From Anaerolineaceae bacterium (GTDB lineage Bacteria > Chloroflexota > Anaerolineae > Anaerolineales > Anaerolineaceae), in the NCBI GenBank assembly GCA_016841445.1, contig JAENZD010000001.1, positions 930,001-994,000 of the forward strand: a DNA stretch of 64,000 nucleotides. Reading direction: 5' to 3'. The notes beneath the pieces were generated by a model. The model had not been told where the DNA came from and ran no database searches. It was given only the letters and a program-made list of their open reading frames with translations. Both the position numbers and the translations under genes were made by a program. Below are positions 42,362-59,944 of the stretch, piece after piece (the stretch's first letter is position 1; each line of letters starts with the position of its first letter).

Positions 42362-42387
42362 ATTCATCCTCGGATTGCCTGGTTTTT

Positions 42388-43425: not shown

Positions 43426-43427
43426 CG

Positions 43428-44351: not shown

Positions 44352-44366
44352 GGTAATTTCCTGATC

Positions 44367-45170
44367 CTATTGATCTTGATTGAATTTGGGTTCACGTTTT
44401 TCAAGGAAGGCATTCCGTCCTTCAACGGAGTCAGCGGAGCGACCAGTCTTTACTCGGAAATCACTTTCAAGTTTCAGCCCGGTTTCCCATCCATCACGCA
44501 AACCCTGATTTACGCAGGTCTTTGCTGCTGAAATCACCGGTGCACTGAAACCGGCAATCGTTTCAGCGATATCCAGCGTCTTCGGCAGCAGTTCTTCATC
44601 ATCAAATAAGTATTCAACCAGCCCAAATTGGTAGGCTTCCTGAGCAGTGATCACTCGACCCGTGAGGATTAACTCCATTGCCCGGCCTCGACCAACCAGC
44701 CTGGGCAGACGCTGCGTGCCGCTGCCTGAGGGGAAAGCGCCAACTTTTACCTCGGGGAAGCCGAATTTAGCTGAAACACAAGCCGTTCTGAAATCACAAG
44801 CCAATGCCAATACAGCACCACCACCGAGTGTATGGCCGTTGCAGGCAGCAATGATGGGAAAACGGGCTTCTTCAATTTTCTGATTGAGCCCCGCTTCCCA
44901 ATAATCATTTTCAAGCAGCCAACCCACTTCCTGGCTGAAATCGCGTATGTCAGAACCAACCGTAAAAGCCTTGCCAACGCCTGTCAGAACAACGCACCTG
45001 ATACCAGGGTCTTTCTCGAGGGATACGACAACCTGGTACAAAGCTCTTTTTACAGCATGACGTAATACGCCTAAAGGTTGAGATGTGATTGTGATTAACG
45101 CAACCCCTTCTCTGGGTTTGGTGACCTGGAGGGATTCACTTTCGATTTCAGTTCCTGAAAATTCACTCAT
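44367..45170 (-). CDS. Enoyl-CoA hydratase/isomerase family protein
   Basis: A 267-residue crotonase-fold protein. It shows CVVLTGVGKAFTVGSDIRDF (oxyanion-hole strand), FPIIAACNGHTLGGGAVLALACD, and FGFPEVKVGAFPSGSGTQRLPRLVGRG. The typical second catalytic glutamate region LPEV.G..P is FPEVKVGAFP, keeping Glu. Its start codon shares one base with the CoA-transferase stop (TGATG), so translation is coupled. It probably hydrates or isomerises the CoA thioester formed by that transferase. Confidence 0.9.
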   Translation of the reverse strand: MSEFSGTEIESESLQVTKPREGVALITITSQPLGVLRHAVKRALYQVVVSLEKDPGIRCVVLTGVGKAFTVGSDIRDFSQEVGWLLENDYWEAGLNQKIEEARFPIIAACNGHTLGGGAVLALACDFRTACVSAKFGFPEVKVGAFPSGSGTQRLPRLVGRGRAMELILTGRVITAQEAYQFGLVEYLFDDEELLPKTLDIAETIAGFSAPVISAAKTCVNQGLRDGWETGLKLESDFRVKTGRSADSVEGRNAFLEKREPKFNQDQ

Positions 45171-46762
45171 CAGTTAGTGTCCTTTCGCAGACGTGAAGGA
45201 ACGTTACTCTGTTCTTTACGGTTAAGATCAATGCTAAGATTCATTGGTTCATCTCTAAAGATGCGCGGGTCCATCTCTTTTAGCACGGGAGAGATAGACG
45301 GTTTAAATTCCATTTGGTCAAGAATTTGGGTCTGGAGATCAATACCCGGCGCAATTTCAATCAGTTCTACCCCTTCCGGACCTCTTCTGAACACAGCCCT
45401 TTCTGTAATATATAATGCCTCCTGGCCTCGTTCCTGGGCAAATGGACCTGAATAAGAAATCTGTTCAACTTCTGTTAAAAGTTTTTTGAATTTTCCTTCA
45501 TTCATAATATGGGTTTGACCATCGATCCAGTCGATATTAAGTTTGCCGGCTGTAAATGTTCCACTGAAAATTACTTTTTTAGCGTATTGACTGATGTTGA
45601 CAAACCCACCGACACCGATGATCCGTCCGTTGAACCGGCTGACGTTGACATTCCCTTTTGCGTCCACCTGTGCAAAGGATAAGAATGCCAGATCCAGGCC
45701 GCCGCCATCATAAAAATCAAACTGATAGGGCTGTTCAACGATAGAGGTGTAGTTGATGGCTGCACCGGCATCAGATGAGGGTGCACCGCCGATGAGGCCC
45801 TGTTCGTTGGTCAGTACAATTCGACCTAAGATCTCTTCTTCAGCCGCGATAGTTGCGATCCCTGTCGAAACCCCTGAACCCAGATTGCAGATCGCTCCCT
45901 GGAAAAGCTCCAGTGCAGCCCGTCGAGCAATAATTTTCCGGGCGTCAAAGGGCAGGGGGGTGATGTCGTTTACCGGGACTTTCACCTCACCTGCATATGC
46001 CGGGCTGTAATCCATCAAGTAGGTCTGGCGTTGATCGGGATCAACAACAACCAGGTCCACCAGCATACCAGGGATTTTTACCTGTTTGGCTGGCAGGGTG
46101 TTTCTTTCAGCTAACCGAGCAACCTGTACAATCACGATCCCACCATTATTATGCGTGGCCTGGGCCATCGAAAGCATCTCTCCAAATACTGCTTCCCGCT
46201 CCATGGTGATATTGCCTTCCTCATCTGCGGTCGTTCCACGAAGGAATGCAACATCGATTTTGTAAGGCTTATAAAACAGCCATTCCTGGCCATCCAATTC
46301 TATTAATTCGACCAGGGATTCAGCAGCACATTCACTCTGCCTGCCACCCAATTGGCGAGGGTCGATGTAAGTATGCATGCCCGTTTTGGTAATCAAACCG
46401 GGCCTACCTGCTGCCATTTCTCGTACCAGTTGAGAAAGGGTTCCTTGTGGTAAAGTGTAAGCTTCAACTTTGTCTTCTTTTGCATATTCCTGAAAAATTG
46501 GACTGTTGACAAGTGCGCCTGTAATGATGCGTTTGACCATGCCGGGGTGTGAGAGGTGCCCTACGCCCTGGCTGATATTATCGCCAATCCCGACAGGATG
46601 GAAGAGCGTGATTTGTTTTGGCGACTGGTGCTTTTCGAACCTATCACCCAGGGCAACGATCAGAGCTTCAGGTACTGCATGACCGCCGCCTGATCCACCT
46701 ATCATAACAGTATCATTGTTATGAACATAACTTACTGCTTCTTCAAATGAGATAACTCGCAT
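45170..46762 (-). CDS. Fused acyl-CoA:carboxylate CoA-transferase
   Basis: A 530-residue family 1 CoA-transferase with alpha and beta parts in one chain. The alpha part has IGGSGGGHAVPEALIVALGDRF, GLITKTGMHTYIDPRQLGG and VAFLRGTTADEEGNITMERE. The beta part has the catalytic glutamate in VLTNEQGLIGGAPSS and FSGTFTAGKLNIDW. It resembles YdiF-type acetate or short-chain CoA-transferases. It activates an organic acid by CoA exchange, without ATP, and feeds the adjacent enoyl-CoA hydratase. Confidence 0.93.
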   Translation of the reverse strand: MRVISFEEAVSYVHNNDTVMIGGSGGGHAVPEALIVALGDRFEKHQSPKQITLFHPVGIGDNISQGVGHLSHPGMVKRIITGALVNSPIFQEYAKEDKVEAYTLPQGTLSQLVREMAAGRPGLITKTGMHTYIDPRQLGGRQSECAAESLVELIELDGQEWLFYKPYKIDVAFLRGTTADEEGNITMEREAVFGEMLSMAQATHNNGGIVIVQVARLAERNTLPAKQVKIPGMLVDLVVVDPDQRQTYLMDYSPAYAGEVKVPVNDITPLPFDARKIIARRAALELFQGAICNLGSGVSTGIATIAAEEEILGRIVLTNEQGLIGGAPSSDAGAAINYTSIVEQPYQFDFYDGGGLDLAFLSFAQVDAKGNVNVSRFNGRIIGVGGFVNISQYAKKVIFSGTFTAGKLNIDWIDGQTHIMNEGKFKKLLTEVEQISYSGPFAQERGQEALYITERAVFRRGPEGVELIEIAPGIDLQTQILDQMEFKPSISPVLKEMDPRIFRDEPMNLSIDLNRKEQSNVPSRLRKDTN

Positions 46763-46779
46763 GATTGATCAGATTCCTT

Positions 46780-48231
46780 CTATTTTTTACGTTTTAATTC
46801 TTTTAAGGTTACTGCTTCAGGTAAGTCTTTATAGAAATGATCCAAAGGATAACAGCCAGAAACAAGGCCTTTTCGAGGTGCGGTAGTGCAATCGCTAAAG
46901 GTCCGACAAATACGTCGCTTGTCAAAAGGCTTTCCTTCGAGAATATCCGCTGGCATTTCAGGATAAGACAGAACCATCCTGCCAAGCGCCACGAAATCAA
47001 TCATATTTCGATCGACAACCGCTTGAGCAACATTTGGTAGGTAATCCTGAAGATAAGTATATGCTGATCCAACGGTAACCAATTGCCCGCTGTGTTTATT
47101 TAACTCGGCACCAACATGAATATGGCGAGCAACCCCTGCCAGCGGATCTTCCGGCATGCTATAGCCATCACTGGGGGGATAATATGCCGGCCTTGTTAAG
47201 TGTGGGTTGTAGTAAGGACTGCCAGCCGTGAAATTGATCAGGGAAACACCCCAGTCGTTTAGCATATTCATTAACTGGATCATTTCGTCCAATTTAATTT
47301 GACCAGGATTGTCAGGATCGCCGCAAAAAGCAAATGGGTACTGACCAGATTCATCCCGATAAGTCAACATTTGGCCAATGTTATCTTCACCAGGACGGTA
47401 AGGCGGCATATCAAACATACTAACACGTACGCCAATTAGGAGTCCAGGGCATTCACTTTGAATGCCTTCCACAATTTGGCGTAAGAACCGTGTCCGGTTT
47501 TCCAACCCCCCACCATATTTTCCTGGTCTTGTAACTGCGCTTAAGAATTCGTGCCCCAGGTAGCCGTGACAATGCTTGATGTCCACGAACTCAAATCCGA
47601 TGGTTTGTGCTCGTTTTGCTGCTATGACATAATACGGTATAAGATCATCAATTTCCCTGTCAGTCAACACGGGGTAATCAGGATCGATGTGGAAGATTTC
47701 ATCCAATAAGGGGTGATGATAGACAATTTTTGGTTCTAATTTCGTTTTTATATTAGGGCGGCAGAACCTGCCAGAGTGCGTAAGCTGGAGACCAATAAAT
47801 AAATCATCCGTTTGTCCAAAATACTGGTTGTGTTCATGGACCAACCCAATACGCATTTTCTCGACTTCTGCCATGGTGTTGTCGAGGATCATCAGTTGAT
47901 TAGGGTTTGCGCGCCCATCAGGTCTGACTGCTGCGGCTTCTCCACCCCAAATGAATTTTGCCCCACTTCTACCGAAATTTAACCAACGGCGTTTGGTCAG
48001 CTCGGATGGATTTCCATCCGTCTCCGCATCCCATCCTTCCATTGGATTAATACAAAAGCGATTGCCAATTGTTTTTCCATTCTGTAATTTATAGGGTTGA
48101 GCCAGAGGGCTATCGGCTCCTGTTTTCATTTGCTCATCGATCGGAATGTCGATATTCATTTTTGTAAGGTATGCCTGGAAATCAGGCAAACATTTGATCC
48201 GAGGGATGTTTAGATAGGGTAATGAAGTCAT
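46780..48231 (-). CDS. NADH:flavin oxidoreductase, Old Yellow Enzyme type
   Basis: A 483-residue FMN-dependent TIM-barrel reductase. Motifs are NRFCINPMEGWDAETDGNP, GFEFVDIKHCHGYLGHEFLS, GVRVSMFDMPPYRPGED and IDFVALGRMVLSYPEMPADI. The C-terminal CRTFSDCTTAPRKGLVSGC holds three cysteines that may bind a cluster. The FAD-binding domain of 2,4-dienoyl-CoA reductases is missing. The ATG at 48231 follows AGGAG by 7 bases, so the longer frame to 48267 is rejected. Ene-reduction of an unsaturated intermediate is likely. Confidence 0.9.
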   Translation of the reverse strand: MTSLPYLNIPRIKCLPDFQAYLTKMNIDIPIDEQMKTGADSPLAQPYKLQNGKTIGNRFCINPMEGWDAETDGNPSELTKRRWLNFGRSGAKFIWGGEAAAVRPDGRANPNQLMILDNTMAEVEKMRIGLVHEHNQYFGQTDDLFIGLQLTHSGRFCRPNIKTKLEPKIVYHHPLLDEIFHIDPDYPVLTDREIDDLIPYYVIAAKRAQTIGFEFVDIKHCHGYLGHEFLSAVTRPGKYGGGLENRTRFLRQIVEGIQSECPGLLIGVRVSMFDMPPYRPGEDNIGQMLTYRDESGQYPFAFCGDPDNPGQIKLDEMIQLMNMLNDWGVSLINFTAGSPYYNPHLTRPAYYPPSDGYSMPEDPLAGVARHIHVGAELNKHSGQLVTVGSAYTYLQDYLPNVAQAVVDRNMIDFVALGRMVLSYPEMPADILEGKPFDKRRICRTFSDCTTAPRKGLVSGCYPLDHFYKDLPEAVTLKELKRKK

Positions 48232-48323
48232 TAATAATCTCCTAAAATGAGTCTGATCAGAAAACAAGTATTAATATTTGTGATTCAAGTACTAATCGGT
48301 AAACACAAATTCCGTTCAATTTT

Positions 48324-49106
48324 TTATAGCCTGTGGATGTGAAAGCCACCATCGACATCAAATGCTTGACCGGTCGAGAATGGGAAATAGCCTTCTGCAA
48401 TTGCCAGGATAGCTTTCGCAATATCCTCAGGTTGGCCCCAACGTTTGATTGGGGTGATCCCCTCTGCGATTAACTTGTCATATTTATCAGAAACAATTTC
48501 CGTCAAAGGTGTTTTGATGATACCTGGGCGAATTTCGTAGACATTGATTCCCTCGTCAGCAAGACGGTCTGCAAACAGGAGGGTGCTCATTGAAACGCCT
48601 GCTTTCGAAATGCAGTATTCTGCCCTGCTTGTACTGGATGTATAGGCGCTCATCGAGCTGATGTTGACGATTTTTGGATCAGCAACAGCCTCGCTTTTTA
48701 TGAGTTTGATCATTTCATTCGCTACGATCTGTGTGAGGAAGAATGATGCAACCAGGTTGACATTTAGAACTTCCCACATACTTTCGACGCTTGTTTCGAG
48801 CATATCCATCCGAACTCTTGGACCGATACCAGCATTGTTTACCAGAAGATCAATCCGTTGATAATGGTTCATTGTTTCGAGAACAATATTTTCACGAGTT
48901 TCAGGTTTGGTAATATCGCCCATAATAATAATTCCGTCACTTCCGGCTTCTCTGACCAGCTCAAGCGTTTCCTCAGGAGGCTTTGGATTGCCAAAATCAT
49001 TAATTACGATTGTCCATCCAGCCTCAGCTAACGTAGCCGCTATTCCTCGACCAATACCCCGCCCTGAGCCAGTAATAATAACAACTTTATTATTCTTCCC
49101 TGTCAT
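48324..49106 (-). CDS. Short-chain dehydrogenase/reductase
   Basis: A 260-residue classical SDR. The coenzyme motif is VIITGSGRGIGRGIAATLAEAG, the structural motif is LLVNNAGIG, and the catalytic set is NISSMSAYTSSTSRAEYCISK (Ser, YxxxK). Asp37-like ND after the second strand (VINDFG) hints at NAD rather than NADP preference. It is the first gene of the leftward catabolic operon, divergent from the GntR regulator. Confidence 0.92.
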   Translation of the reverse strand: MTGKNNKVVIITGSGRGIGRGIAATLAEAGWTIVINDFGNPKPPEETLELVREAGSDGIIIMGDITKPETRENIVLETMNHYQRIDLLVNNAGIGPRVRMDMLETSVESMWEVLNVNLVASFFLTQIVANEMIKLIKSEAVADPKIVNISSMSAYTSSTSRAEYCISKAGVSMSTLLFADRLADEGINVYEIRPGIIKTPLTEIVSDKYDKLIAEGITPIKRWGQPEDIAKAILAIAEGYFPFSTGQAFDVDGGFHIHRL

Positions 49107-49440: not shown

Positions 49441-50148
49441 ATGACTATTTTACGATCATTTTCTAAAGAAGCACCACCCCTTCGGGAAGAATTTGCTTAC
49501 GAGGCAATAAAAGAGGCGATTCTCGCCGGCGATCTACTTCCTAACCAAAAAATCAGCCTTTCATCAATGGCTGAGAGTATGGGAATCAGCATTATTCCTG
49601 TGAAAAGTGCTGTTCAACGGTTGATCAGTGAGGGTCTTATTCGGCAGGATCCGCATCATTCACCTGTTGTTGAAGAATTATCCTGGAAAGAAACCCTTGA
49701 AGTTCTCAGGATAAGATACCATTTAGAGGATTTAGCGCTTCGTGAATCAATTTCGCATATTAATGGGGATGACATTACTGATCTGATGAAATATATTGAA
49801 CGTTTTAAGGAAGCGCTTGAAAATAAAGATAATCACACCTATGGCAAACTGAATCGTGAATTTCATATGGCAATATATGAATATTCAAAAATGCCGCTTT
49901 TGGTCACTATGATCGATGACCTTTGGAATAAATCGGAGCTCAATCGATCACGCAGTGTCTTTTCTTTGGTGCCAGATATGATGGCGCATTCATTGAAAGA
50001 GCACATTGATTTTGTTAATTTGATCAAGCATAAAGATTGTGAACCCGCACTTGCGCTTCTGCACAAGCACAGATCGTTTTCCCAGAAGATGCTAGCTGAG
50101 GCGATGCATAAAACTACTCCTAATCAACTTCTTGAGTCAAACAATTAG
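49441..50148 (+). CDS. GntR-family regulator with FCD domain
   Basis: A 235-residue regulator. The winged helix spans residues about 14-75 (YEAIKEAILAGDLLPNQKIS, MAESMGISIIPVKSAVQRLI). The FCD ligand-binding domain follows, with LRIRYHLEDLALRESI, NREFHMAIYEYSKMPLL and EHIDFVNLIKHKD; the Asp/His residues fit a metal-binding FCD pocket. FadR/VanR-type members sense organic acids. Its place between divergent catabolic operons marks it as their likely regulator. Confidence 0.92.
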   Translation: MTILRSFSKEAPPLREEFAYEAIKEAILAGDLLPNQKISLSSMAESMGISIIPVKSAVQRLISEGLIRQDPHHSPVVEELSWKETLEVLRIRYHLEDLALRESISHINGDDITDLMKYIERFKEALENKDNHTYGKLNREFHMAIYEYSKMPLLVTMIDDLWNKSELNRSRSVFSLVPDMMAHSLKEHIDFVNLIKHKDCEPALALLHKHRSFSQKMLAEAMHKTTPNQLLESNN

Positions 50149-50158
50149 ATATTTTTTC

Positions 50159-51019
50159 ATGAATTCTTTCAACTATTATCAGCCCAAGAATATTGAAGAC
50201 TTATTTGACCTGCAGGAATGCAGTGCAGATAATTATCGTTTGTTAGCAGGCGGAACAGATTTGTTGGTTCGTTTGAAATCAGGAAGCATCACTCCTGAAG
50301 CAATAATTGACATTAAACGTATTCCCTCATTGAATTCCGGAATTAGTATTGAAGCAGATAAGGTTACGTTTGGTGCATTAACCTTAATGGCGACATTGGA
50401 ATCAGATGAATTTCTGGAAGAGAATTATCCGGCGCTTACAGAGGCGGTCCATAATATTGGATCTGTACAAATTCGCAATCGTGCAACAATTGCTGGCAAT
50501 TTGTGCAACGCTTCTCCGGCTGCAGACAGTGCGCCTGCATTATTAATTTATGACGCATCCGTTGTTTGTGTATCGCGCAAAGGCGAACGGACATTACCAT
50601 TGCAAGAGTTCATAAAAGGGCCTGGCAAAACGGCTTTAGTTTCTAATGAAATTGTAAAACAAATTGTGATGCCATTACCATCACAGAATCAGGCAGGTGC
50701 ATTTTCTCGACTTACACGTCGTAAAGGGGTTGATCTGGCGACTATCAACCTTTGCTGTCAGGTTAACCAAACCGGAAAGGCTCGGTTTGCGCTCGGTGCT
50801 GTAGGACCGGTGCCTTTCATCGTTGAAGAAAATGAAGGCCTCTTATTATCAACGGATATCAGCAGCGAAGTGAAAAAATCAATCATTTCAAAGTTGATGG
50901 AAAAAGCAACGCCAATATCTGATGTCCGGGCGAGCAAAGAATATCGACAAGCTATGCTAACAGTTTTGGGTTGGCGTGCATTCAATACCGCCATTGAACG
51001 ATTACAGAACAAGATTTAG
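50159..51019 (+). CDS. Molybdenum hydroxylase FAD-binding subunit
   Basis: A 286-residue flavin subunit of the xanthine dehydrogenase/CoxM type. Residues 30-45 hold the FAD motif LLAGGTDLLVRLKSG, followed by IGSVQIRNRATIAGNLCNASPAADS, the second flavin motif. The C-terminal CO_deh_flav_C-like domain begins near residue 175. It transfers electrons from the iron-sulfur subunit to NAD or another acceptor. The ATG at 50159 is chosen because the frame upstream overlaps the GntR end; its ribosome site is weak. It is the first structural gene after the regulator. Confidence 0.92.
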   Translation: MNSFNYYQPKNIEDLFDLQECSADNYRLLAGGTDLLVRLKSGSITPEAIIDIKRIPSLNSGISIEADKVTFGALTLMATLESDEFLEENYPALTEAVHNIGSVQIRNRATIAGNLCNASPAADSAPALLIYDASVVCVSRKGERTLPLQEFIKGPGKTALVSNEIVKQIVMPLPSQNQAGAFSRLTRRKGVDLATINLCCQVNQTGKARFALGAVGPVPFIVEENEGLLLSTDISSEVKKSIISKLMEKATPISDVRASKEYRQAMLTVLGWRAFNTAIERLQNKI

Positions 51020-51027
51020 GAAATATT

Positions 51028-51519
51028 TTGGAAATTAAGAACGTTCATGAAATCACAATAAATATTAATGATCAGCCCTACACGATTGGTGTGCAAGCTC
51101 ATCATACGCTTTTAGATGTTCTGCGTGATCAATTGGATATTACCGGACCAAAAGAATGCTGCGGTGTTGGTGAATGCGGCGCGTGCACAGTGCTGCTGGA
51201 TGGTCAGGCGGTCAATGCCTGCTTGATCCTGGCTGTTGAAGTTGATGGGTCAGAAATTATTACAATCGAAGGCCTGGGTGGATCAGTTCATTTATCGCCG
51301 TTACAGCAAGCTTTCATCGATGCCGGCGCAGTCCAATGTGGATTTTGCACACCGGGGATGATCATGGCAGCGCAATATTTACTTAATACATATCCAGAAC
51401 CGACTAAAGAAGAAGTTAGAGTTGCTTTATCTGGTAACTTATGCCGTTGTACTGGTTATGACAGGATCATTGATGCAGTCCTTTCTGTTTCACGACAACA
51501 AAAAGAAAGGGTGAAATAA
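51028..51519 (+). CDS. Molybdenum hydroxylase 2Fe-2S subunit
   Basis: A 163-residue subunit with both clusters of this family. The plant-ferredoxin-type site uses Cys45, 50, 53 and 65 (ECCGVGECGACTVLLDG...NAC). The second site uses Cys104, 107, 139 and 141 (CGFCTPGMIM...LCRCTGY). It passes electrons between the molybdenum centre and FAD. The TTG start follows an AGGA site. The large subunit is not next; three genes separate it, which is unusual for these operons. Confidence 0.94.
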   Translation: MEIKNVHEITININDQPYTIGVQAHHTLLDVLRDQLDITGPKECCGVGECGACTVLLDGQAVNACLILAVEVDGSEIITIEGLGGSVHLSPLQQAFIDAGAVQCGFCTPGMIMAAQYLLNTYPEPTKEEVRVALSGNLCRCTGYDRIIDAVLSVSRQQKERVK

Positions 51520-51520
51520 A

Positions 51521-52384
51521 ATGAGCAATTCTGCTGTTGAAGCACTCGACACTTTATTAAATCATGTCAATGCATCAGAGATTACACCTCTCCGGCTGCG
51601 AGATTGGCACAAATTAATTGAATGGTGTATTGATGGCTCCTCATATTATTGGCTTTCCGATGGAAAGCAGTTTCACCCGGCAGAGGGGGGACAGGCGGAT
51701 TTTATTCTTAAGCTATCCGAAGATACCCTTTTACGAATATCAGAAGGCAAGTTACCCTTCTTTATTGGTCTTTGGGGAACGGGTGATATTCAGTTTGAAG
51801 GTTCTTTTGGAGATGCATATCGCTTAGGATATGTTTTCTTATCAGATAAGAGAGAACGACGGGTCATTTTCATCAGCCATTGCTGGTTAAATATTAATAC
51901 ACGCTTTCCTGAGGGCTGCTCCTTTGCTGGTGCAAACGTTCCTCTTATAAAGACTTTGCTTGATGCAGGACTGGGTATTATCCAAATGCCTTGCCCTGAA
52001 TATGAATGCCTTGGACTTGAAAAATGGCTGTACGGTGAAGTCATATTGGATGATATCAGGGCATGCTTCCGGATAAAAGCTGAAGTTGTCTTAAAACAAA
52101 TCAAGGATTATCAAGCATTGGGATTTGATATCGTTGGTGTTCTTGGGATGAATCCGAGCCCTTCTTGCGGTGTAACGGTAGCGAAAGGGAAAGGGACAAT
52201 GCTGGGTACAGACAGGGATACATCCGAGGAACCTGTGCCCGGAATTTTTATCGAAGAATTACAAAAACTTCTAAATCAAGCTCAAATCGAAGATATTCGT
52301 TTTTTCGGTGTTAGAAGAACACTGATTGGCGAGAGTGATTTAGATGAAAAAATCGTGTCATTACAGGCTTTTATTCAAGCCTGA
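51521..52384 (+). CDS. SCP2-like domain fused to a TudS/DUF523-like putative desulfidase
   Basis: A 287-residue two-domain protein. Residues about 55-110 (ADFILKLSEDTLLRISEG, LWGTGDIQFEGSFGDAYRL) resemble an SCP2 sterol-carrier or lipid-binding fold. Residues 115-280 resemble TudS-related proteins (DUF523 group): SHCWLN (Cys121), MPCPEYECLGL (Cys158) and NPSPSCGV (Cys216). These three cysteines would hold a 4Fe-4S cluster with a free iron able to bind sulfide. It starts one base after the 2Fe-2S gene and precedes the cyclase gene. It may remove sulfur from the substrate or handle sulfide for the molybdenum cofactor; both are guesses. Confidence 0.75.
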   Translation: MSNSAVEALDTLLNHVNASEITPLRLRDWHKLIEWCIDGSSYYWLSDGKQFHPAEGGQADFILKLSEDTLLRISEGKLPFFIGLWGTGDIQFEGSFGDAYRLGYVFLSDKRERRVIFISHCWLNINTRFPEGCSFAGANVPLIKTLLDAGLGIIQMPCPEYECLGLEKWLYGEVILDDIRACFRIKAEVVLKQIKDYQALGFDIVGVLGMNPSPSCGVTVAKGKGTMLGTDRDTSEEPVPGIFIEELQKLLNQAQIEDIRFFGVRRTLIGESDLDEKIVSLQAFIQA

Positions 52385-52474: not shown

Positions 52475-53236
52475 ATGACAAGAATTATCGACCTGAGCTT
52501 ACCACATCAAAACTTTGCTAGCGAACCCTTTCCACCCTCAATAACACATACAACCCACGAGGAAGGAGCACGCAGATTAGCAGTATTAGCACAAGTTGAT
52601 CCGACGGATTTTGACGATGGGATGGGTTTGGCATCCGATCAGGTTAATGCAAGCACCCACTCTGGTACGCATGTTGATGCCCCATGGCATTATGGACCAA
52701 CAGTTGATGGGAAGCCCTCAAAAACAATCGACCAGGTGCCATTGGAATGGTGCTATGGGAATGGTGTTCTTCTGGATTTTCGTCATCTTGAGCAAGGGTC
52801 TGAAATAACAATTGATGATGTGAAAGCTGCTATAAAGAAGATTGAGCATACACTGGAACCCGGTGATGTTGTTTTAGTCCAAACGGGTGCTGATAAGTTC
52901 TGGGGAACAACTAAATATTTGCCAGCGCAGTCTGGTTTAGGCATGGATGCGACAGAGTATATCCTTGACCAAGGTGTCAAGGCAATTGGCATCGATGGGT
53001 GGGGCTTAGACCGGCCTGTAAAAAAGATGGTTGAATCGTTTCATGAAACTGGCAGGAAGAAAGATCTCTGGCCTTCGCACTTTTATGGCCGCCGTCGCGA
53101 GTATCTCCAGATCGAGAAGATGGCAAACCTGGATCAATTGCCAGCCTCAACAGGTTTCAAAGTTGCATTTTTCCCTGTAAAAATTGAACGCGGTTCCGCT
53201 GGTTGGACCCGTGCTGTAGCAATAATTGAAGATTAA
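52475..53236 (+). CDS. Cyclase-family (kynurenine formamidase-like) metal-dependent hydrolase
   Basis: A 253-residue metal hydrolase. The defining metal motif is STHSGTHVDAPWHYGP (HxGTHxDxPxH), with PGDVVLVQTGADKFWGT and AIGIDGWGLDRP downstream. The family opens or hydrolyses cyclic amides, N-formyl compounds and lactones (kynurenine formamidase, isatin hydrolase). An AGGAG ribosome site precedes the ATG. In an operon with a molybdenum hydroxylase it fits a ring-opening or amide-cleaving step after hydroxylation. Confidence 0.9.
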   Translation: MTRIIDLSLPHQNFASEPFPPSITHTTHEEGARRLAVLAQVDPTDFDDGMGLASDQVNASTHSGTHVDAPWHYGPTVDGKPSKTIDQVPLEWCYGNGVLLDFRHLEQGSEITIDDVKAAIKKIEHTLEPGDVVLVQTGADKFWGTTKYLPAQSGLGMDATEYILDQGVKAIGIDGWGLDRPVKKMVESFHETGRKKDLWPSHFYGRRREYLQIEKMANLDQLPASTGFKVAFFPVKIERGSAGWTRAVAIIED

Positions 53237-53257: not shown

Positions 53258-54469
53258 ATGGAAGAAAAACTGTATCATAACGAGAATTATTGGGTAAGTT
53301 CGTATAATTATTTTGATGAGGTCCGTGCTGGTTTTCAACTCCCAGTTAGGCTTAAGATACATGATGTAACTTTGCGCGATGGTGAGCAGAGTCCCGGCGT
53401 GGCATTTCGTGCGGATGATAAAGTCCGCATCGCACAACTGCTTGATGAACTTGGTGTCGATCGGATTGAGGTCGCATTACCAGCAGTCTCGGAAGAAGAC
53501 AAGATTGCAACCAAGCGCGTTGTTGAACTCAGACCTAATGCCCAGGTTTTTGTTCTATGCAGAGGTATGGCAAGTGATGTTGAATTAGCATTGGAGTGCG
53601 GCGTCGATGGCGTTATTTTGGAGCTTCCTGTAGGTACCCCAAGGTTAAAACACCAGTTTTCCCATTGGACTGAAGAAGATGTTATCGAAAAAGCTGCCTA
53701 CTGGGCAAAATACGCAAAGGATAAAGGGCTGGAAGTCGTCCTATTCCCTATGGATTGCACCCGGTCCCGAACAGAATTCTTTACAAAAGTTCTGGAAGAT
53801 GTTGGCGCTTTACCAGAGGTGGATGGTGTTGCTCTTGTTGATACCTCCGGCTCACTCTCTCCCCAAGCAGCAACTTATTTGATCAAGCATATGAAAGATA
53901 TCACCCAGAAACGGATTGAAGTCCATACACATTCAGATTTTGGGATGGGTGTTGCAACATCATTAGCTGCGTTGATAGCAGGCGCAGAAGTCGTCCATGC
54001 CTCAATTGGTGGACTTGGCGAAAGAACTGGTAACACACCTCTTGATGAAGTCGCTGTTTCCGCGAAAGCACTTTACGGTCTTGATAGCAATATCAAATTT
54101 GAAAAACTATTCGATATTTCTAATGAAATATTGGAAATTAGCAAATTCAAAGTTGCATCATCGAAGCCCGTGATTGGTGAACGTGCCTTCACTCGAGAAT
54201 CCGGGATGGGCGTGGACCTTGTGAAGAAACAACCGCTTGCATTATTTGGTGTGATGCCCAGTTGGGTTGGACAGAAGCCTCAGTATGTTCTTGGAAAGAA
54301 ATCCGGTATTGCATCTGTTGAAATGAAGCTTGAAGATTTAGGCATGCCCATGCTGGATGAAGAAGATAAGATCTTGGTCTTGGATGGTGTGAAAACACTT
54401 GGTTTAGAGAAAAAAGGCCTGGTCACAGACGATGAATTTGTTTCAATTGTCAAGCAGGTTACAGGTTAG
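53258..54469 (+). CDS. Homocitrate synthase/isopropylmalate synthase-like DRE-TIM enzyme
   Basis: A 403-residue DRE-TIM metallolyase-type enzyme. It has DVTLRDGEQSPGVAF, the metal-binding HTHSDFGMGVA, and GGLGERTGNTPLDEVAV. A C-terminal domain from about residue 300 contains FTRESGMGVDLVKK and GKKSGIASVEMKLEDLG, as in homocitrate or citramalate synthases. Such enzymes condense acetyl-CoA with a 2-oxo acid, or run the reverse aldol. In this catabolic operon a lyase direction is plausible, but a synthase is not excluded. No lysine or leucine pathway genes are near. Confidence 0.88.
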   Translation: MEEKLYHNENYWVSSYNYFDEVRAGFQLPVRLKIHDVTLRDGEQSPGVAFRADDKVRIAQLLDELGVDRIEVALPAVSEEDKIATKRVVELRPNAQVFVLCRGMASDVELALECGVDGVILELPVGTPRLKHQFSHWTEEDVIEKAAYWAKYAKDKGLEVVLFPMDCTRSRTEFFTKVLEDVGALPEVDGVALVDTSGSLSPQAATYLIKHMKDITQKRIEVHTHSDFGMGVATSLAALIAGAEVVHASIGGLGERTGNTPLDEVAVSAKALYGLDSNIKFEKLFDISNEILEISKFKVASSKPVIGERAFTRESGMGVDLVKKQPLALFGVMPSWVGQKPQYVLGKKSGIASVEMKLEDLGMPMLDEEDKILVLDGVKTLGLEKKGLVTDDEFVSIVKQVTG

Positions 54470-54516: not shown

Positions 54517-56811
54517 ATGGCAAAAATTGGTGATTCAGTAAAGCGTGTTGGTATAGAAGATCGAGTCAGTGGTGCATTGAAGTTCGCTGCTGACTTGAAA
54601 TTCAACAATATTCTACATGTCAAGTTAGTACGTTTGGATGTTGGCCACGCGCGAATTAACGCAATTGATACAAGTGAAGCATCACAGATTCCCGGCGTGA
54701 GGTATATCTTCACATCTGAGGATATGCCTAAGCCAATGCCATTGTACGGACCTTTCTATGATGACCAACCAATTATTGCTGTAGGTGAGATAAAATTCCA
54801 TGGTGATCCAGTGGCAGCTGTCGTTGCTGAAACCGAGGATATTGCCGAAAAAGCTGCAAAATTAGTGGAAGTGGATTTTGAAGAATTGGATGGCGTTTAC
54901 ACGGTAGAACAAGCATTAGCCCCAGATGCTCCGCTGGTACAGGATCCATCCATACGGGTTAGAAAAGATTTAGCTCAAACAAATATCTTTGAAGATTGGC
55001 AATATGGTTGGGGTGATCCAGAAAATGCGCCAGCTGACTTTGTCATTGATGATGAATTCAATTTCCCAATGACGACCCACTTTGCAATTGAACCGCATGT
55101 ATTTATAGCAGCACCTGATCAAGATGGCGTTCTGATAAGGAGTACGGTTCAACATCCATTTTTACTGCAGCGGGTTATTTCAAATACGCTGAATATCCCA
55201 GTCTCGAAAATTCGTGTTATCCCAACAGAACTGGGCGGAGCGTTTGGTGGAAAAGGATATCCCAAGTTCGAGCCGCTGGTAGCCTTTATCGCTATGAAGC
55301 TTCAGCAACCCGTTCGATTACGTTTTAGCCTGGAAGAGACTTTCCTGGTTGGCAGGAGAACGTCAAGCAGTATTCATGTGACGGCGGGATTTATGAAAGA
55401 CGGCAGGTTGTCATTCATGAAGGTCAATGCTGACTTCTTGATGGGTGCGTTTTCCAACGCATCTCCCCGGGTTGTTGCAAAAGCTGCCAATGCGGGATGT
55501 GGTATCTATAACCCACCCAATGCCAGCATTTATGCAAGAGCGATCCTTTCTCATACCATTCCGGGCACCGCTTTTCGGGGTTTTGGTGCACCTCAGTTCA
55601 TGTGGGCGCTTGATTCGATCATGGACATGGCAGCTAGAGCTTTGGACATAGATCCGCTGGAGCTTCGGCTTAAGAATATTCCAAATCGCGGCGAGGTTTT
55701 TCTTCATGGGGAAAAAGCGTGCGATGGCGACTGGAAGGAAGGTTTAACAAAAGCAGCAGAAGCTATCGGTTGGGGTTCTCCACTGCCCGAAAATCGTGGA
55801 CGTGGATTGGGTATTGGTGTGAAAACACCGGCACCTGCAACAGTATCGCAGTCGATGGTGCGCATGCATCACGATGGAAGTGTCACCATTCTGGTTGGTA
55901 CAACAGAGATGGGGCAGGGCGCACGTACGGTGATGGCCCAATTGGTATCCGATGCAATGGATATTCCAATGAACCGTATCAATATTATCAATGGTGACAC
56001 CGGTGTGGTTCCCTTTGATTCAGTCACTGCCTCAAGCCGGTCTACTGTTTTCATGGGTAATGCTGTCCAACGAGCATGCGATGACCTTAAGAAAAAGCTT
56101 GTTGATCTGACCGTAAAATATTTCGAAGTAAACCCGGAAACGATTGAATTTATTGGCGGTCAAATCGTGTACGATGGCGGAACAATAAACTATAAGGAAG
56201 TACTAACAGCACATTATGGCGGTTTTCAGGGCGAGGTGATTGGTCTTGGACTTTATAAGGAGCCGCTCTTGAAAGATCACCCCTTAAAAGGCGGCGTCTC
56301 CTTTTACGAGGTCATTTTTGCCGGTGCTGAGGTGGAAGTGGACAAAGAAACAGGTTTTGTCCATATGAAGAAACTTGTTACTGTTGGTGATGTTGGAAAA
56401 GCGATCAATCCCTTAGCTGTTGAGACACAAGACGAGGGCGGTGCTATAATGGGTTTAGGCCATTCATTGATGGAACATCTCATCATGGATCGAAAAGGCA
56501 GATTTATTAATCTGGGCGCATTAGACTACCGCATTCCTACAACATTGGATATTCCCGAGTTTTTTCAATCAAAATTAATCGAAAATATGGATGGCACAGG
56601 CCCGTCGGGTGCCAAAGGCGTCGGTGAAAGCGGCATCATTCCTATCGGTTCAGCAGTCGGGCTTGCAATCGCTGAAGCGACTGGGGTCTTCTTTCACGAT
56701 CTACCCCTGACGCCTGAAAGAGTTTGGAAGGGATTACAGGATGCCCAAGTATCTCATTCCCACATGGGCAAGAATTTCCCACAAGATGATGAAGGAGGTA
56801 AAAAAGGCTAA
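54517..56811 (+). CDS. Molybdenum hydroxylase large, molybdopterin-binding subunit
   Basis: A 764-residue subunit of the xanthine dehydrogenase family. Motifs are LGGAFGGKGYP (240-249), the substrate-pocket motif AFRGFGAPQ (352-360), a molybdopterin contact GTTEMGQGARTVMAQ near 470, and the catalytic glutamate in GVGESG (Glu704). The CO dehydrogenase signature CSFR is absent, so CO oxidation is unlikely and hydroxylation of a heterocycle or aldehyde is expected. It completes the set with the FAD and 2Fe-2S subunits encoded upstream. No XdhC or other maturation gene is present in the window. Confidence 0.93.
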   Translation: MAKIGDSVKRVGIEDRVSGALKFAADLKFNNILHVKLVRLDVGHARINAIDTSEASQIPGVRYIFTSEDMPKPMPLYGPFYDDQPIIAVGEIKFHGDPVAAVVAETEDIAEKAAKLVEVDFEELDGVYTVEQALAPDAPLVQDPSIRVRKDLAQTNIFEDWQYGWGDPENAPADFVIDDEFNFPMTTHFAIEPHVFIAAPDQDGVLIRSTVQHPFLLQRVISNTLNIPVSKIRVIPTELGGAFGGKGYPKFEPLVAFIAMKLQQPVRLRFSLEETFLVGRRTSSSIHVTAGFMKDGRLSFMKVNADFLMGAFSNASPRVVAKAANAGCGIYNPPNASIYARAILSHTIPGTAFRGFGAPQFMWALDSIMDMAARALDIDPLELRLKNIPNRGEVFLHGEKACDGDWKEGLTKAAEAIGWGSPLPENRGRGLGIGVKTPAPATVSQSMVRMHHDGSVTILVGTTEMGQGARTVMAQLVSDAMDIPMNRINIINGDTGVVPFDSVTASSRSTVFMGNAVQRACDDLKKKLVDLTVKYFEVNPETIEFIGGQIVYDGGTINYKEVLTAHYGGFQGEVIGLGLYKEPLLKDHPLKGGVSFYEVIFAGAEVEVDKETGFVHMKKLVTVGDVGKAINPLAVETQDEGGAIMGLGHSLMEHLIMDRKGRFINLGALDYRIPTTLDIPEFFQSKLIENMDGTGPSGAKGVGESGIIPIGSAVGLAIAEATGVFFHDLPLTPERVWKGLQDAQVSHSHMGKNFPQDDEGGKKG

Positions 56812-56868: not shown

Positions 56869-58089
56869 ATGAAAAAACTGAGTATTTTAATAATTTTTGT
56901 GATGATTTCAGCTTTATTGCTAAGTGCTTGCGCTGAAAAAGAGCCAGAAGTTGTCCAAGAAGAAACTGAGACAGAAGATGTTGTTGCTGAAAAAGAGCCA
57001 GAAGTCATTAAGATTGGTAACCTTCAGGATGAGTCTGGTCCAATGGCTGCTCTTTCCGGCGCAGTAACACTTGCGGCTGAAATGAGAATTGAAGAAGTAA
57101 ACGCCGCTGGTGGGATTAATGGGCGTATGCTCGAACTGATTACCCATGATACTCGTGGTGACGTCAATGAAGCCATTAATGCCTTAACCCGCATGGTTGT
57201 TCAGGATGATGTCCAGGTTGTATTAGGCCCTCCAGTTTCCAACATCGGTATCGCGATTGCACCTATCAGTGAAGAGCTGCAGGTCCCGATTGTTGGTCTG
57301 TTCATGGAAGATCGCTGCACCATCCGCGAACCTGGGACACCATGGTCATATATGTTCCTTGCACAAAATTCTGCTTCCCGACAGGGTGAATCGATTGCAG
57401 CTTATGCTGTCCAGGAACTTGGCCTGACAAAATTCGCCACACTTGTCAACACAGCGAATTCCTATTCTGTCGGTCTTGCTGAACCCTTCAAGGCATTAGT
57501 GAGAGCCAATGGCGGCGAAGTTGTTGCCGAAGAAACCTATAACTGGGAAGACAAAGATTTCCGTGCTCAATTGACAAACATTAAGGGTACAGATGCAGAA
57601 GCACTCTTCTTCCCTGGCTATCCACCAGAAATTCCGTTGATCCTGGCGCAGGCGTATGAATTGGGTCTGGACGTCGTCATGTTGGGAAATAACTCCGTTG
57701 CCCCGACAGGATTTGCACCAACCACCGATCCCGCCGCGACCGCGAACACTTTCTATCCCTATGGGATTGATTCAAGTGATCCAAGCGTGTCCGACTGGGC
57801 AGCGAAATACGAAGCGCGATGGGAAACCAAACCCCTTGCACAATCATTCAGTGGTGACGATGCGATTGGGATCATCCTTCAGGCGATTGAAGCTTGCGGT
57901 GATGATGTGACATCAGCATGTATTACTGAAAAACTCAACACCATGGGAGAATTTGAAGGTCTCCAGGGAACGTTTGCACTTGATCCTACAACACATCAAC
58001 CAATTGGTCTGCCAATGGCGATCTTTACCATCACAGATGGCGCTCCTGTCTTCTTGGAATGGTACACCCCTGACGGTCCTGTAAATTAA
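56869..58089 (+). CDS. Liv-type ABC transporter substrate-binding lipoprotein
   Basis: A 406-residue periplasmic-binding-fold lipoprotein. The lipobox is LLLSACAEK (cysteine near residue 21). A 20-residue acidic linker with a repeated AEKEPEV block precedes IKIGNLQDESGPMAALSGA, the typical start of Peripla_BP_6 proteins. EEVNAAGGINGRMLELITHD, VVLGPPVSNIGIAIAPISEE and FFPGYPPEIPLILAQAYELG follow. It captures an amino acid, amide or aromatic acid and delivers it to the downstream permeases. An AAAGGAG site precedes the ATG. Confidence 0.92.
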   Translation: MKKLSILIIFVMISALLLSACAEKEPEVVQEETETEDVVAEKEPEVIKIGNLQDESGPMAALSGAVTLAAEMRIEEVNAAGGINGRMLELITHDTRGDVNEAINALTRMVVQDDVQVVLGPPVSNIGIAIAPISEELQVPIVGLFMEDRCTIREPGTPWSYMFLAQNSASRQGESIAAYAVQELGLTKFATLVNTANSYSVGLAEPFKALVRANGGEVVAEETYNWEDKDFRAQLTNIKGTDAEALFFPGYPPEIPLILAQAYELGLDVVMLGNNSVAPTGFAPTTDPAATANTFYPYGIDSSDPSVSDWAAKYEARWETKPLAQSFSGDDAIGIILQAIEACGDDVTSACITEKLNTMGEFEGLQGTFALDPTTHQPIGLPMAIFTITDGAPVFLEWYTPDGPVN

Positions 58090-58118
58090 TAAATTAGATT
58101 AAGAACTTTGAGTAAGAC

Positions 58119-58150
58119 TTGGGGCTCAAACTGTAAAGTTTGAGCCCCAA
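58119..58150 (+). terminator. Intercistronic hairpin after the binding-protein gene
   Basis: A perfect 14-bp stem (TTGGGGCTCAAACT and its complement) closed by a GTAA loop. No T-run follows, and the next gene starts 20 bases later. It fits a stabiliser or partial terminator that keeps the binding protein more abundant than the permeases. Confidence 0.75.
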
Positions 58151-58169
58151 TAAAGAACAAGGAGTAACT

Positions 58170-59057
58170 ATGGACTTGATTGAGATTTTTCAACAGGTAA
58201 TCAATGGATTATCTCGAGGTGCAATTTATGCATTAATTGCTGTCGGCTTTGCAATCATTGTAAATGTCCTCAAGTTTTCTAACTTTGCCCATGGCGGTGT
58301 CTTGGGGATCAGCGCATATGCTGGATATTTGGCATCCAGTCAATTCAATCTATCATTCATCCCAGTTGTTCTAATTGGGATGGTAACTGGTGCAATCGTT
58401 GCAGTCCTTGTAGAATTTATTGCCTTTCGCTGGATCAGAATGCAAAAAGGGCAATTGGTCTATTTTTTTGTTACCTCAGTCACCATGTTGATGCTTCTTG
58501 AGCAAATATTGGTCATCCGGTTTGGTTCATTTTTTGACACCTACCCTTATGATTTAATTAAAGTGAAATTCATCAATATTGGTGAATTAAGCATTTCTGT
58601 GACTTATTTAATTTCGCTTGCTGTCACGATCGTTGCGTTTGGTTTGCTCATCTATGTCTTTAAGAAGACAAAAATCGGTATTGCTATACGTGCAGCATCA
58701 AACGATATGACAACGACAAGTTTAATGGGAATCAATACGGGTATGGTGATCATTGCCGCATTTGTTGTTTCTGGAATGATGGGCGGAATATCAGGTGTTC
58801 TTTTTGGCATCTCCACTTCTTTATCCCCTCAAATTGGCCAGGTAGTTGTTAAAGGGTTCATTGCCTCAGTTCTCGGTGGACTTGGTAGTTTGACGGGTGT
58901 AGCTGTGGCAGCAGTTGCCTTAGGATTGATTGAAGTGTTTTTAGTATCGACCATTGGATCTGGCTATTCACCTGTTGTAATTTTTGCTCTGATGATTGCG
59001 TTTTTGCTGCTGCGCCCTCAGGGTTTTGCTGGTGTTAGTTTTACTGATAAAGCCTGA
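58170..59057 (+). CDS. Liv-type ABC transporter permease (LivH-like)
   Basis: A 295-residue membrane protein with about eight hydrophobic spans. It opens with FQQVINGLSRGAIYALIAVG and FSNFAHGGVLGISAYAGY, typical of LivH, and has ASNDMTTTSLMGINTGMVI in the cytoplasmic loop that contacts the ATPases. The ATG at 58170 is set by an AAGGAG site 5 bases upstream; the frame from 58140 would start inside the hairpin. Confidence 0.92.
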   Translation: MDLIEIFQQVINGLSRGAIYALIAVGFAIIVNVLKFSNFAHGGVLGISAYAGYLASSQFNLSFIPVVLIGMVTGAIVAVLVEFIAFRWIRMQKGQLVYFFVTSVTMLMLLEQILVIRFGSFFDTYPYDLIKVKFINIGELSISVTYLISLAVTIVAFGLLIYVFKKTKIGIAIRAASNDMTTTSLMGINTGMVIIAAFVVSGMMGGISGVLFGISTSLSPQIGQVVVKGFIASVLGGLGSLTGVAVAAVALGLIEVFLVSTIGSGYSPVVIFALMIAFLLLRPQGFAGVSFTDKA

Positions 59058-59078
59058 TCTTGTGAGGAGGAATTATTT

Positions 59079-59942
59079 ATGGATTTCTACATTGTAGTAG
59101 GTATAGGAATTGCTGCGAATTCAATAGCGGTTTTAGGTACCTTCATGCTAACTGGCATGAATGGTCTTTTCTCGCTGGGGCAAGCAGCATTCATGGGCTT
59201 GGGAGCTTACATTTCCGCGATATTAGTGGTAAATGTCGGTTTACCTTTTGCTGTTGCTATCCTGATCAGCATGCTGATTTGCTCTGCACTGGCATTTCTA
59301 GTCGGATTAGCTTCCTTGAGAATAAGGCAAGATTTCTTTGCCCTTGTCACATTTGGCTTTGGGCAGGCTGTGATTGCATTTTTCCAGGAGTACGTATCAG
59401 TGACAGGCGGCGCATTGGGTTTTTCAAACATACCCAATTTAACAACCCCAACTTTGGCATTTGTTTCCCTGGCTGTGGGAATTTTCCTTGTTTGGGGATT
59501 CCGACGCAGTCATTTCTTGAGGGACAGCCTGGCTATTAGAAGCAATGAATTGGCAGCAAAGGTCGCAGGTATAAACGTATTCAAGCATAAAATGATTGTT
59601 TTCATCATTGCGGCAGCCTTGACTGCATATGCAGGTTCGTTAATGGCTTTTCATACCAGATATGTTGAGCCCAAGATGTACGGATGGATTACAACAGTAA
59701 CATGGATCATCATTGTGTTTTTTGGCGGTCGAGATAGCCTTACTGGCACGATGGTTGGATCCATACTTCTACTTATGGCTCCTGAATTATTGAGATTCAC
59801 GACTGCCTATCGAATCATTCTTTACTGTGCCATCATTCTGATCATCATTAATGTGAGACCGAAAGGGCTATTTGGTACATGGGAACTTTCAATAAAACCA
59901 CTATTGCGCCTGTTTAAACGGAAAAAACAGGAGGTGAGCTGA
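59079..59942 (+). CDS. Liv-type ABC transporter permease (LivM-like)
   Basis: A 287-residue polytopic membrane protein pairing with the LivH-like permease. It has MNGLFSLGQAAFMGLGAYIS near the start, the IRSNELAAKVAGINVFKHK loop for ATPase coupling and the C-terminal INVRPKGLFGTWE. A GGAGG ribosome site is present. It is followed within 2 bases by the first ATPase gene. Confidence 0.92.
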   Translation: MDFYIVVGIGIAANSIAVLGTFMLTGMNGLFSLGQAAFMGLGAYISAILVVNVGLPFAVAILISMLICSALAFLVGLASLRIRQDFFALVTFGFGQAVIAFFQEYVSVTGGALGFSNIPNLTTPTLAFVSLAVGIFLVWGFRRSHFLRDSLAIRSNELAAKVAGINVFKHKMIVFIIAAALTAYAGSLMAFHTRYVEPKMYGWITTVTWIIIVFFGGRDSLTGTMVGSILLLMAPELLRFTTAYRIILYCAIILIIINVRPKGLFGTWELSIKPLLRLFKRKKQEVS

Positions 59943-59944
59943 TA

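Follow-up and report, generated by a model that had tools for sequence, protein, structure and literature searches.

What is the role of a protein that joins a lipid-carrier-like domain to a TudS-like domain and is encoded inside the operon of a molybdenum (Mo) hydroxylase? The gene for such a fusion protein lies in a 64-kb stretch of the genome of an Anaerolineaceae bacterium, which was analyzed as a whole and is referred to here as the window (Table 1). An earlier note on this DNA had put forward two ideas: the desulfuration of a thio-substrate, or the supply of the sulfido ligand to the Mo centre.

Table 1. Positions of the fusion gene, its domains and putative active-site residues, and the neighbouring genes in the window
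Feature	Position	Strand	Basis
FAD_binding_2 flavoprotein, zinc ADH, FAH-family hydrolase, enoyl-CoA hydratase, CoA-transferase	40388..46762	-	
Old-yellow-enzyme-type (OYE) flavoprotein, recurrent partner of the fusion	46780..48267	-	PF00724
SDR reductase, recurrent partner of the fusion	48324..49106	-	NF009386, 302.6 bits (cut-off 250)
GntR-type regulator	49441..50148	+	Named from sequence; homologues in G056, G019 and G010 clusters
FAD subunit of Mo hydroxylase	50132..51019	+	PF00941, PF03450
2Fe-2S subunit of Mo hydroxylase	51028..51519	+	PF01799, PF00111
SCP2-like/TudS-like (CD3072 branch) fusion protein	51521..52384	+	287 aa; profile match and predicted structure
SCP2-fold N-terminal domain, ~residues 1-108	51521..51844	+	Fold match to 3bdq_B, Z 12.4
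TudS-fold C-terminal domain, residues 113-287	51857..52384	+	NF045597, 6z92_A, hhalign
Cys121, equivalent to cluster ligand Cys10 of TudS_A	51881..51883	+	Invariant in 34/34; alignment to TudS
Cys158 of CPE motif, equivalent to Cys43 of TudS_A	51992..51994	+	Invariant in A3; hhalign
Glu160, equivalent to catalytic Glu45 of TudS_A	51998-52000	+	hhalign
Ser213, equivalent to Ser101 of TudS_A	52157-52159	+	hhalign
Ser215, equivalent to Ser103 of TudS_A	52163-52165	+	hhalign
Cys216 of SPSCG, equivalent to Cys104 of TudS_A	52166..52168	+	A3 alignment, hhalign
PF04199 cyclase-family hydrolase	52475..53236	+	Pfam; 82-87% identical in three relatives
HMGL-like/homocitrate-synthase-like enzyme	53258..54469	+	PF00682, PF22617
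Molybdenum subunit of Mo hydroxylase	54517..56811	+	PF20256, PF02738, PF01315
LivKHMGF-type ABC importer, five ORFs, downstream	56869..61430	+	Named from sequence; synteny with relatives

Domains and active site of the fusion protein

According to the ORF list and its translation, the fusion gene starts with ATG and is separated by 1 base from the end of the 2Fe-2S subunit ORF. The AlphaFold2 model of the protein was built from 34 sequences and had a mean pLDDT of 91. Residues 1–106 of the model resembled the SCP2 structure 3bdq_B (Z 12.4, rmsd 2.6, 101 aligned residues), and residues 114–287 resembled the TudS crystal structure 6z92_A (Z 10.4, rmsd 3.1, 138 aligned residues, ~19% identity). 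In the model, one protein combines an SCP2 fold with a TudS fold, and both domains that had been claimed from the letters alone were thus recovered by prediction. In the Foldseek search, SCP2 rows were found among the best 50 of 605 rows, where no TudS row was present; TudS surfaced only in the VIA second look.

The C-terminal half of the window protein (residues 113–265) matched the profile NF045597, 'CD3072 family TudS-related putative desulfidase', with E 4e-32. Its score of 110.9 bits (112.7 bits in a second run) was below the equivalog cut-off of 130; CD3072 is nonetheless the closest named family, and it was matched by all ten fusions scanned (the fusion at locus L026 was outside that scan). 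PF04463 scored 16.2 bits on the window protein, below its gathering cut-off of 34.7, and matched all ten fusions weakly (best E 4.9e-6). The alignment of the C-terminal domain to a profile of three canonical TudS sequences by hhalign had a probability of 95% and E 2.5e-8. Of the two domains for which an HMM search had been advised, the TudS-like one was thus found, whereas Pfam SCP2 (PF02036) did not match the window protein at E 0.1 and matched only three of the ten fusions, weakly (best E 0.006). A sequence search of the PDB was uninformative for the window protein; with the profile of the 34 aligned sequences, it retrieved only an L-serine dehydratase (E 1, not significant) and no TudS.

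The fusion shares its C-terminal fold and the three Cys, Glu and Ser residues with TudS (DUF523, PF04463; 4-thiouracil or 4-thio-UMP desulfidase). It differs from TudS in the low identity over the aligned region, the score below the Pfam cut-off, the separate long branch described below, the additional N-terminal domain and the catabolic-operon context. RudS (TudS-DUF1722), which accounts for 40.1% of the sequences reported in PMC11417400, likewise combines a TudS domain with a partner, and this partner alters the substrate. In contrast to RudS, the partner domain of the fusion is SCP2-like and N-terminal, and no link to tRNA modification was seen in the neighbourhoods read. Residues 1–108 share their fold with SCP2-fold proteins, the SCP2 domain of alkylsulfatases (Pisa1, SdsA1) and UbiJ, but are only 9–18% identical to them and are joined to a TudS-type domain.

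In TudS_A, the cluster ligands are Cys10, Cys43 and Cys104, and the catalytic residues are Glu45, Ser101 and Ser103 (PMC10611767). C121, the CPE motif (C158/E160) and the SPSC motif (S213–C216) of the fusion were paired with the canonical TudS positions by hhalign, and residue equivalence was also obtained via a canonical relative aligned to 6z92. Conservation was examined in A3, an alignment of 34 sequences comprising 10 fusions, including that of the window, and 24 unfused relatives. H120, C121, C158, E160, S213, P214 and C216 were invariant in all 34 sequences, and S215 was kept in 10/10 fusions and 10/24 unfused relatives. These alignments show conservation of the complete presumed set of TudS cluster ligands and catalytic residues (C121, C158, C216, E160, S213 and S215). 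The three cysteines singled out in the earlier note, 121, 158 and 216, are present where it had placed them and none was lost in any sequence of A3; they are only part of the full TudS-type site predicted here.

Two more residues, K222 and R266, were invariant among the fusions and present in 0/24 unfused relatives. Residues 168 (R in 24/24 unfused relatives) and 265 (K in 15/24) did not distinguish the fusions. K222 and R266 hint at an anionic ligand and, because carboxylate-type transporters are encoded nearby (see below), an anionic substrate is suggested. In the SCP2-fold domain, the aromatic residues W44, F80, F81 and W85 were invariant, and W29 and W35 nearly so, among the ten fusions of a second alignment (A4), which includes L014 and omits L026 and so differs by one from the ten fusions of A3. 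Two unfused CD3072-like proteins (L030 and L088) carry an N-terminal stretch that by eye resembles a twin-arginine export signal.

Distribution and genomic setting

One genome per species was scanned for 84,980 species, with two short peptide patterns as the first filter. The best 80 of 306 confirmed stretches were kept, and fusions without those patterns could be missed. Nine full or partial fusions were present among these best 80 of 306 stretches, the one at L026 being frameshifted and the one at L022 truncated by a contig end; with those of genome G010 and the window, the total was 11. The closest non-fusion relatives in the same best 80 of 306 were 37% identical and downward. From the 79 loci of the scan, the 9 fusions and 24 unfused relatives were included in A3 together with the window, and the other 46 unfused ones were left out (5 read, 41 not). 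The SCP2-like part was absent from 29 unfused ORFs that were read by eye. At two unfused loci (L032 and L034), the tblastn match ran from residue 35 on, and the L032 ORF (198 codons) begins beyond that part.

The fusion records are labelled Chloroflexota, Atribacterota, Bacillota (Paradesulfitobacterium), Spirochaetales, Deltaproteobacteria, 'Flavobacteriaceae' MAG and unassigned bacterium, and hence span about six labelled phyla, although MAG labels may be wrong. One fusion belongs to a named strain, Paradesulfitobacterium ferrireducens PLL0 (L024, G878). The 11 fusions formed one clade (support 100/99) in a tree built from TudS domains, and the five fusions from Mo operons formed one subgroup within it (support 96/89). 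Between the fusion domains and the two canonical TudS sequences included, this tree has a long branch. Across the class, NF045597 matched 7 of 396 genomes, the window's own included, and seven loci beyond its own; six of these seven loci are in the tree, and L104 and L120 were dropped by the motif filter. Among plasmids, 14 records matched, none of which covered 80% of the query. No relative was found in phages, and viral contigs gave one relative with a match confined to residues 103–265.

In the window, the fusion gene does lie between the gene for the 2Fe-2S subunit and downstream enzymes, as the earlier note had claimed; the PF04199 gene at 52475 comes next, and the Mo hydroxylase subunits beside the fusion are genuine by Pfam. 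The (+) strand carries, in order, genes for GntR, the FAD and 2Fe-2S subunits, the fusion, the cyclase, the HMGL-like enzyme, the Mo subunit and the Liv-type importer. The divergent (−) arm runs from SDR and OYE to the CoA-transferase, enoyl-CoA hydratase, FAH-family hydrolase, zinc ADH and FAD_binding_2 flavoprotein. No gene for KDPG aldolase or KDG-type kinase was found by eye in the ORF list of this cluster. A transketolase-like gene (62383-64000, by eye) follows the Liv importer, and a Transketolase_N match is present in the G010 cluster (L143, 9780-12137).

Mo hydroxylase genes were located near the fusion in five of the 11 cases: the window, L014 (G010), L020 (G056 contig), L021 (G019 contig) and L022. 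All five belong to the window's family, as judged by kinship or record labels. The other six fusions (L023–L028) had no Mo hydroxylase genes in the available flanks, which were 10 kb at L024 and L027, 7–8 kb at L023, 6.1 and 2.9 kb at L028, and shorter at L025 and L026. The proximity to xanthine dehydrogenase-type genes, whose frequency the earlier note had proposed to check, is therefore real for part of the fusions but does not extend to the rest.

Other neighbours recurred more widely. Homologues of the window-type OYE and SDR were encoded within 10 kb of the fusion in the window and at L020, L021, L023, L027 and L028. With a threshold of at least 300 bits, both were present within 10 kb at three of the six non-Mo fusion loci (L023, L027 and L028) and at 0/70 unfused-TudS loci (from the best 80 of 306). 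The SDR partner is not fully specific, since an SDR match of 307 bits was found at the unfused locus L018 (outside the 70). At L024 (Paradesulfitobacterium), neither OYE nor SDR was found at 300 bits in 10 kb per side, and in G010 the OYE gene is ~14 kb from the fusion.

Several of the non-Mo clusters are of catabolic type. At L023 (an Atribacterota MAG), the order is IclR, KDPG aldolase, fusion, PfkB/KDG-type kinase (by eye), tricarboxylate-type transporter, OYE, SDR and flavoprotein. At L028 (a GMC4 MAG), the fusion gene, from its ATG on, shares 4 bases with the end of an IlvD-type dehydratase gene, and at L027 the fusion has transporters on both sides, by eye of the TRAP type. The tricarboxylate-type receptor TctC was matched at L023 and L025; the other carboxylate-type transporters were recognized by eye. 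KDPG aldolase and kinase genes are also found in the divergent arm of L012 (G056) and, by eye, of L013 (G019). The fusion is set in catabolic clusters, of which the Mo hydroxylase operon is just a single derived variant.

Among 151 genomes, the HMGL-like marker and the full-length fusion were found in the same four, and OYE was found in 15. G073 and G140 have most genes of the divergent arm and, by eye, aldolase and kinase genes, but the 20 kb read there contained neither the fusion nor Mo, cyclase or HMGL genes. Within the sugar-acid-like cassette, the fusion is therefore optional and peripheral, and the Mo operon is one specialized form of this cassette.

OYE/SDR homologues recur in further relatives without the fusion (L136, L137, L142 and L144). 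They are accompanied by aldolase and kinase genes (by eye) at L136 and L137, lie beside GH88-family genes at L137 and L142, and lie beside a similar ORF (by eye) at L144. These neighbourhoods suggest an OYE-containing route for uronate or sugar-acid catabolism, matched to no known pathway. A plasmid of Subdoligranulum variabile (L114, OY725857.1, 955-14704) encodes a Liv importer, an IlvD-like protein, OYE, SDR and a flavoprotein, of which OYE was identified by tblastn and the rest by eye; no TudS gene was seen among the ORFs of this cluster, read by eye. The plasmid neighbours of cyclase and OYE homologues in two records gave no clear pointer to a substrate. At L026 (2082-4745), the gene after the frameshifted fusion encodes a protein that combines dihydroorotate-dehydrogenase-like, Fer4_20 and pyridine-nucleotide-disulfide oxidoreductase domains. 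Its resemblance to dihydropyrimidine dehydrogenase is a possible hint of a heterocyclic substrate.

Chemistry proposed for the TudS-type site

Desulfuration, the first idea of the earlier note, remains the best guess for the chemistry of the fusion, since the Glu and Ser residues of TudS are conserved in addition to the cysteines. Our preferred, still tentative, reading is that of a catabolic [4Fe-4S] enzyme, most likely a desulfidase, which acts on a small substrate and is peripheral to a sugar-acid-type cassette. The protein probably carries out one step in the breakdown of an organic acid and probably does not serve the build-up of the adjoining Mo enzyme.

According to this proposal, the fusion would be a cytosolic two-domain enzyme with a [4Fe-4S] cluster that is ligated by the three cysteines and has one iron left open. 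The substrate, small and probably anionic, would bind to this iron through its leaving group, and Glu160 and the serines would activate a water molecule that displaces this group. The leaving group would most likely be sulfide, derived from a C=S or thiol-bearing acid, and the cluster would pass to a [4Fe-5S] state before sulfide is released, as proposed for TudS. The SCP2-like domain may provide a substrate pocket or a lid lined with aromatic residues. The product would enter the sugar-acid-type cassette (KDG-type kinase, KDPG aldolase, SDR and old yellow enzyme), to which the step would remain peripheral. In the window's family, the enzyme would have become part of an operon that handles one imported substrate and that also encodes a Mo hydroxylase, a cyclase-family hydrolase and an HMGL-like enzyme. 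The main weakness of the desulfidase reading is that we know of no sulfur compound that fits a sugar-acid cassette. The lack, by eye, of KDPG aldolase and KDG-type kinase genes in the window's cluster, the cassettes without the fusion in G073 and G140 and the absence of OYE and SDR at L024 also count against the proposal. To our knowledge, no activity is known for any protein of the CD3072 branch, and the name of NF045597 itself says 'putative'.

The main rival is a dehydratase, in view of the KDPG aldolase, KDG-type kinase and IlvD-type genes near the fusion and of the 2-hydroxyacyl-CoA dehydratases in the wider family. Here the TudS-type site would work as a [4Fe-4S] hydro-lyase: the open iron would bind a hydroxyl, Ser and Glu would provide acid-base catalysis, and a 2-keto-3-deoxy acid would be formed for the kinase and aldolase. 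This agrees with L023, where the fusion lies between the KDPG aldolase and KDG-type kinase genes and no other dehydratase is recognizable by eye in 16 kb. It also agrees with the overlap of the fusion and the IlvD-type gene at L028; however, this gene already provides L028 with a dehydratase. TudS is placed in the wider family of benzoyl-CoA reductase/2-hydroxyacyl-CoA dehydratase in PMC11971306. A dehydratase of that family, 3o3n_B, was recovered with Z 7.4 to the model, but this value falls in the range that the structure tool calls common. In addition, the catalytic residues that are kept are those proposed for desulfuration. We regard hydro-lyase chemistry as possible but unlikely. Its fuller form, a TudS-fold [4Fe-4S] hydro-lyase for polyhydroxy acids with the SCP2-like domain as substrate pocket, is a shade more doubtful. 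If true, it would represent a new kind of iron-sulfur sugar-acid dehydratase and a non-desulfuration function for the CD3072 branch.

Ordinary TudS-like salvage of 4-thio-UMP or thiouracil, by a gene placed in the operon by chance, would account for an active-site set that is the same as in TudS. The role would moreover be vacant, since a search of the window's own genome at E 1e-10 gave no canonical PF04463 match. The catabolic neighbours across several labelled phyla, the lack of K222 and R266 in the 24 unfused relatives and the long branch from the two canonical TudS sequences speak against salvage, which we judge improbable. SCP2 domains are mostly carriers, and the fusion could on this ground be a non-catalytic sensor or carrier of sulfide, an iron-sulfur species or a hydrophobic acid; with the catalytic Glu160 and Ser213 invariant in 34/34 sequences, such a role is more improbable still.

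The molybdenum link and the meaning of the fusion

The second idea of the earlier note, supply of the sulfido ligand to the Mo centre, has fared worst. It is unlikely because the Mo link is limited to the window's family, two of the nine fusion genomes searched have no Mo hydroxylase match, and XdhC is encoded elsewhere in 5/5 genomes with the operon. XdhC-type chaperones are usually required for sulfuration in the Mo hydroxylase family (PMC2997495). XdhC itself has only the Mo hydroxylase neighbourhood in common with the fusion and belongs to a different protein family. The absence of an XdhC-type factor from the window, which the earlier note had pointed out, holds for PF13478 within the 64 kb. 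The genome, however, has one XdhC match, on contig 3 (708164-708592), ~221 kb before the window start and between two other MoCoBD_1 matches.

A maturation factor should occur with the hydroxylase and never without it. Six of the 11 fusions have no Mo genes in their available flanks, some of which are short, and the Mo association is confined to one subclade. No MoCoBD_1 match was found in two of the nine fusion genomes searched, one of them a 5.5 Mb MAG (MAG completeness is uncertain). Where a fusion acts as the maturation factor, no other sulfuration factor should be present; XdhC, searched with the PF13478 model only, was found in 8/11 fusion genomes, being absent from G879, G880 and G881. 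The window's own genome has six MoCoBD_1 loci and one fusion, and Mo genes were found at none of the 70 unfused-TudS loci (from the best 80 of 306; 1,112 kb), 43 of which span at least 15 kb. On this distribution of XdhC and Mo genes, Mo sulfuration was rejected as the main role.

Several observations nevertheless favour a direct link to Mo. The fusion adjoins the 2Fe-2S gene in the window, G056 and G019, and is 1.7 kb away from it in G010, where the order differs and the fusion precedes the GntR gene. Seven of the nine fusion genomes have between 4 and 19 MoCoBD_1 matches each, 58 in all, and G879 (Spirochaetales) combines five of them with the lack of an XdhC match. In G014, an unfused TudS relative is encoded beside a Mo hydroxylase 2Fe-2S gene. 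Because of the genomes rich in MoCoBD_1, G879 and G014, a small probability is kept for such a link. A maturation factor that supplies the sulfido ligand is very improbable. The abundance of MoCoBD_1 in the seven genomes and the G014 pairing may reflect a shared kind of substrate. Paradesulfitobacterium ferrireducens (G878, L024) stands out with 19 MoCoBD_1 matches, a high number for a genome of 3.3 Mb.

A general link between CD3072-type TudS proteins and Mo hydroxylases was also considered and rejected on the same 70 unfused loci, with G014 as the exception. In this genome of the window's genus, an unfused CD3072-like TudS gene adjoins the 2Fe-2S and FAD genes of a different Mo hydroxylase (L019 1616-3640, L145) and is flanked on the other side by an FAH-family gene. 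This is a second, apparently independent TudS/Mo-hydroxylase neighbourhood, from one of five unfused relatives in the 151-genome search whose surroundings were read. The G014 protein sits on a very long branch with an unsure position in the tree, and a search with it matched 2 of 400 genomes of the phylum, namely the window's own and that of L120.

No paper naming CD3072 was found in the literature, nor, among the papers listed and partly judged by title, any TudS-SCP2 fusion in print, any paper for the cassette terms, or any that joins '2-thiouracil desulfurase' or DUF523 with Mo hydroxylase. As judged from the comparisons above, the SCP2 partner domain and the genomic setting appear to be new for a protein of the TudS superfamily, whereas TudS fusions as such are known from RudS. 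According to PMC10611767 and PMC11417400, TudS proteins remove sulfur at an open iron without a redox reaction, and this chemistry is connected with thiolated uracil compounds and tRNA. A TudS-type site fixed in catabolic clusters of several labelled phyla would either extend this chemistry to catabolism or mean that the fold does something else. With either outcome, the CD3072 branch would for the first time have a tested role.
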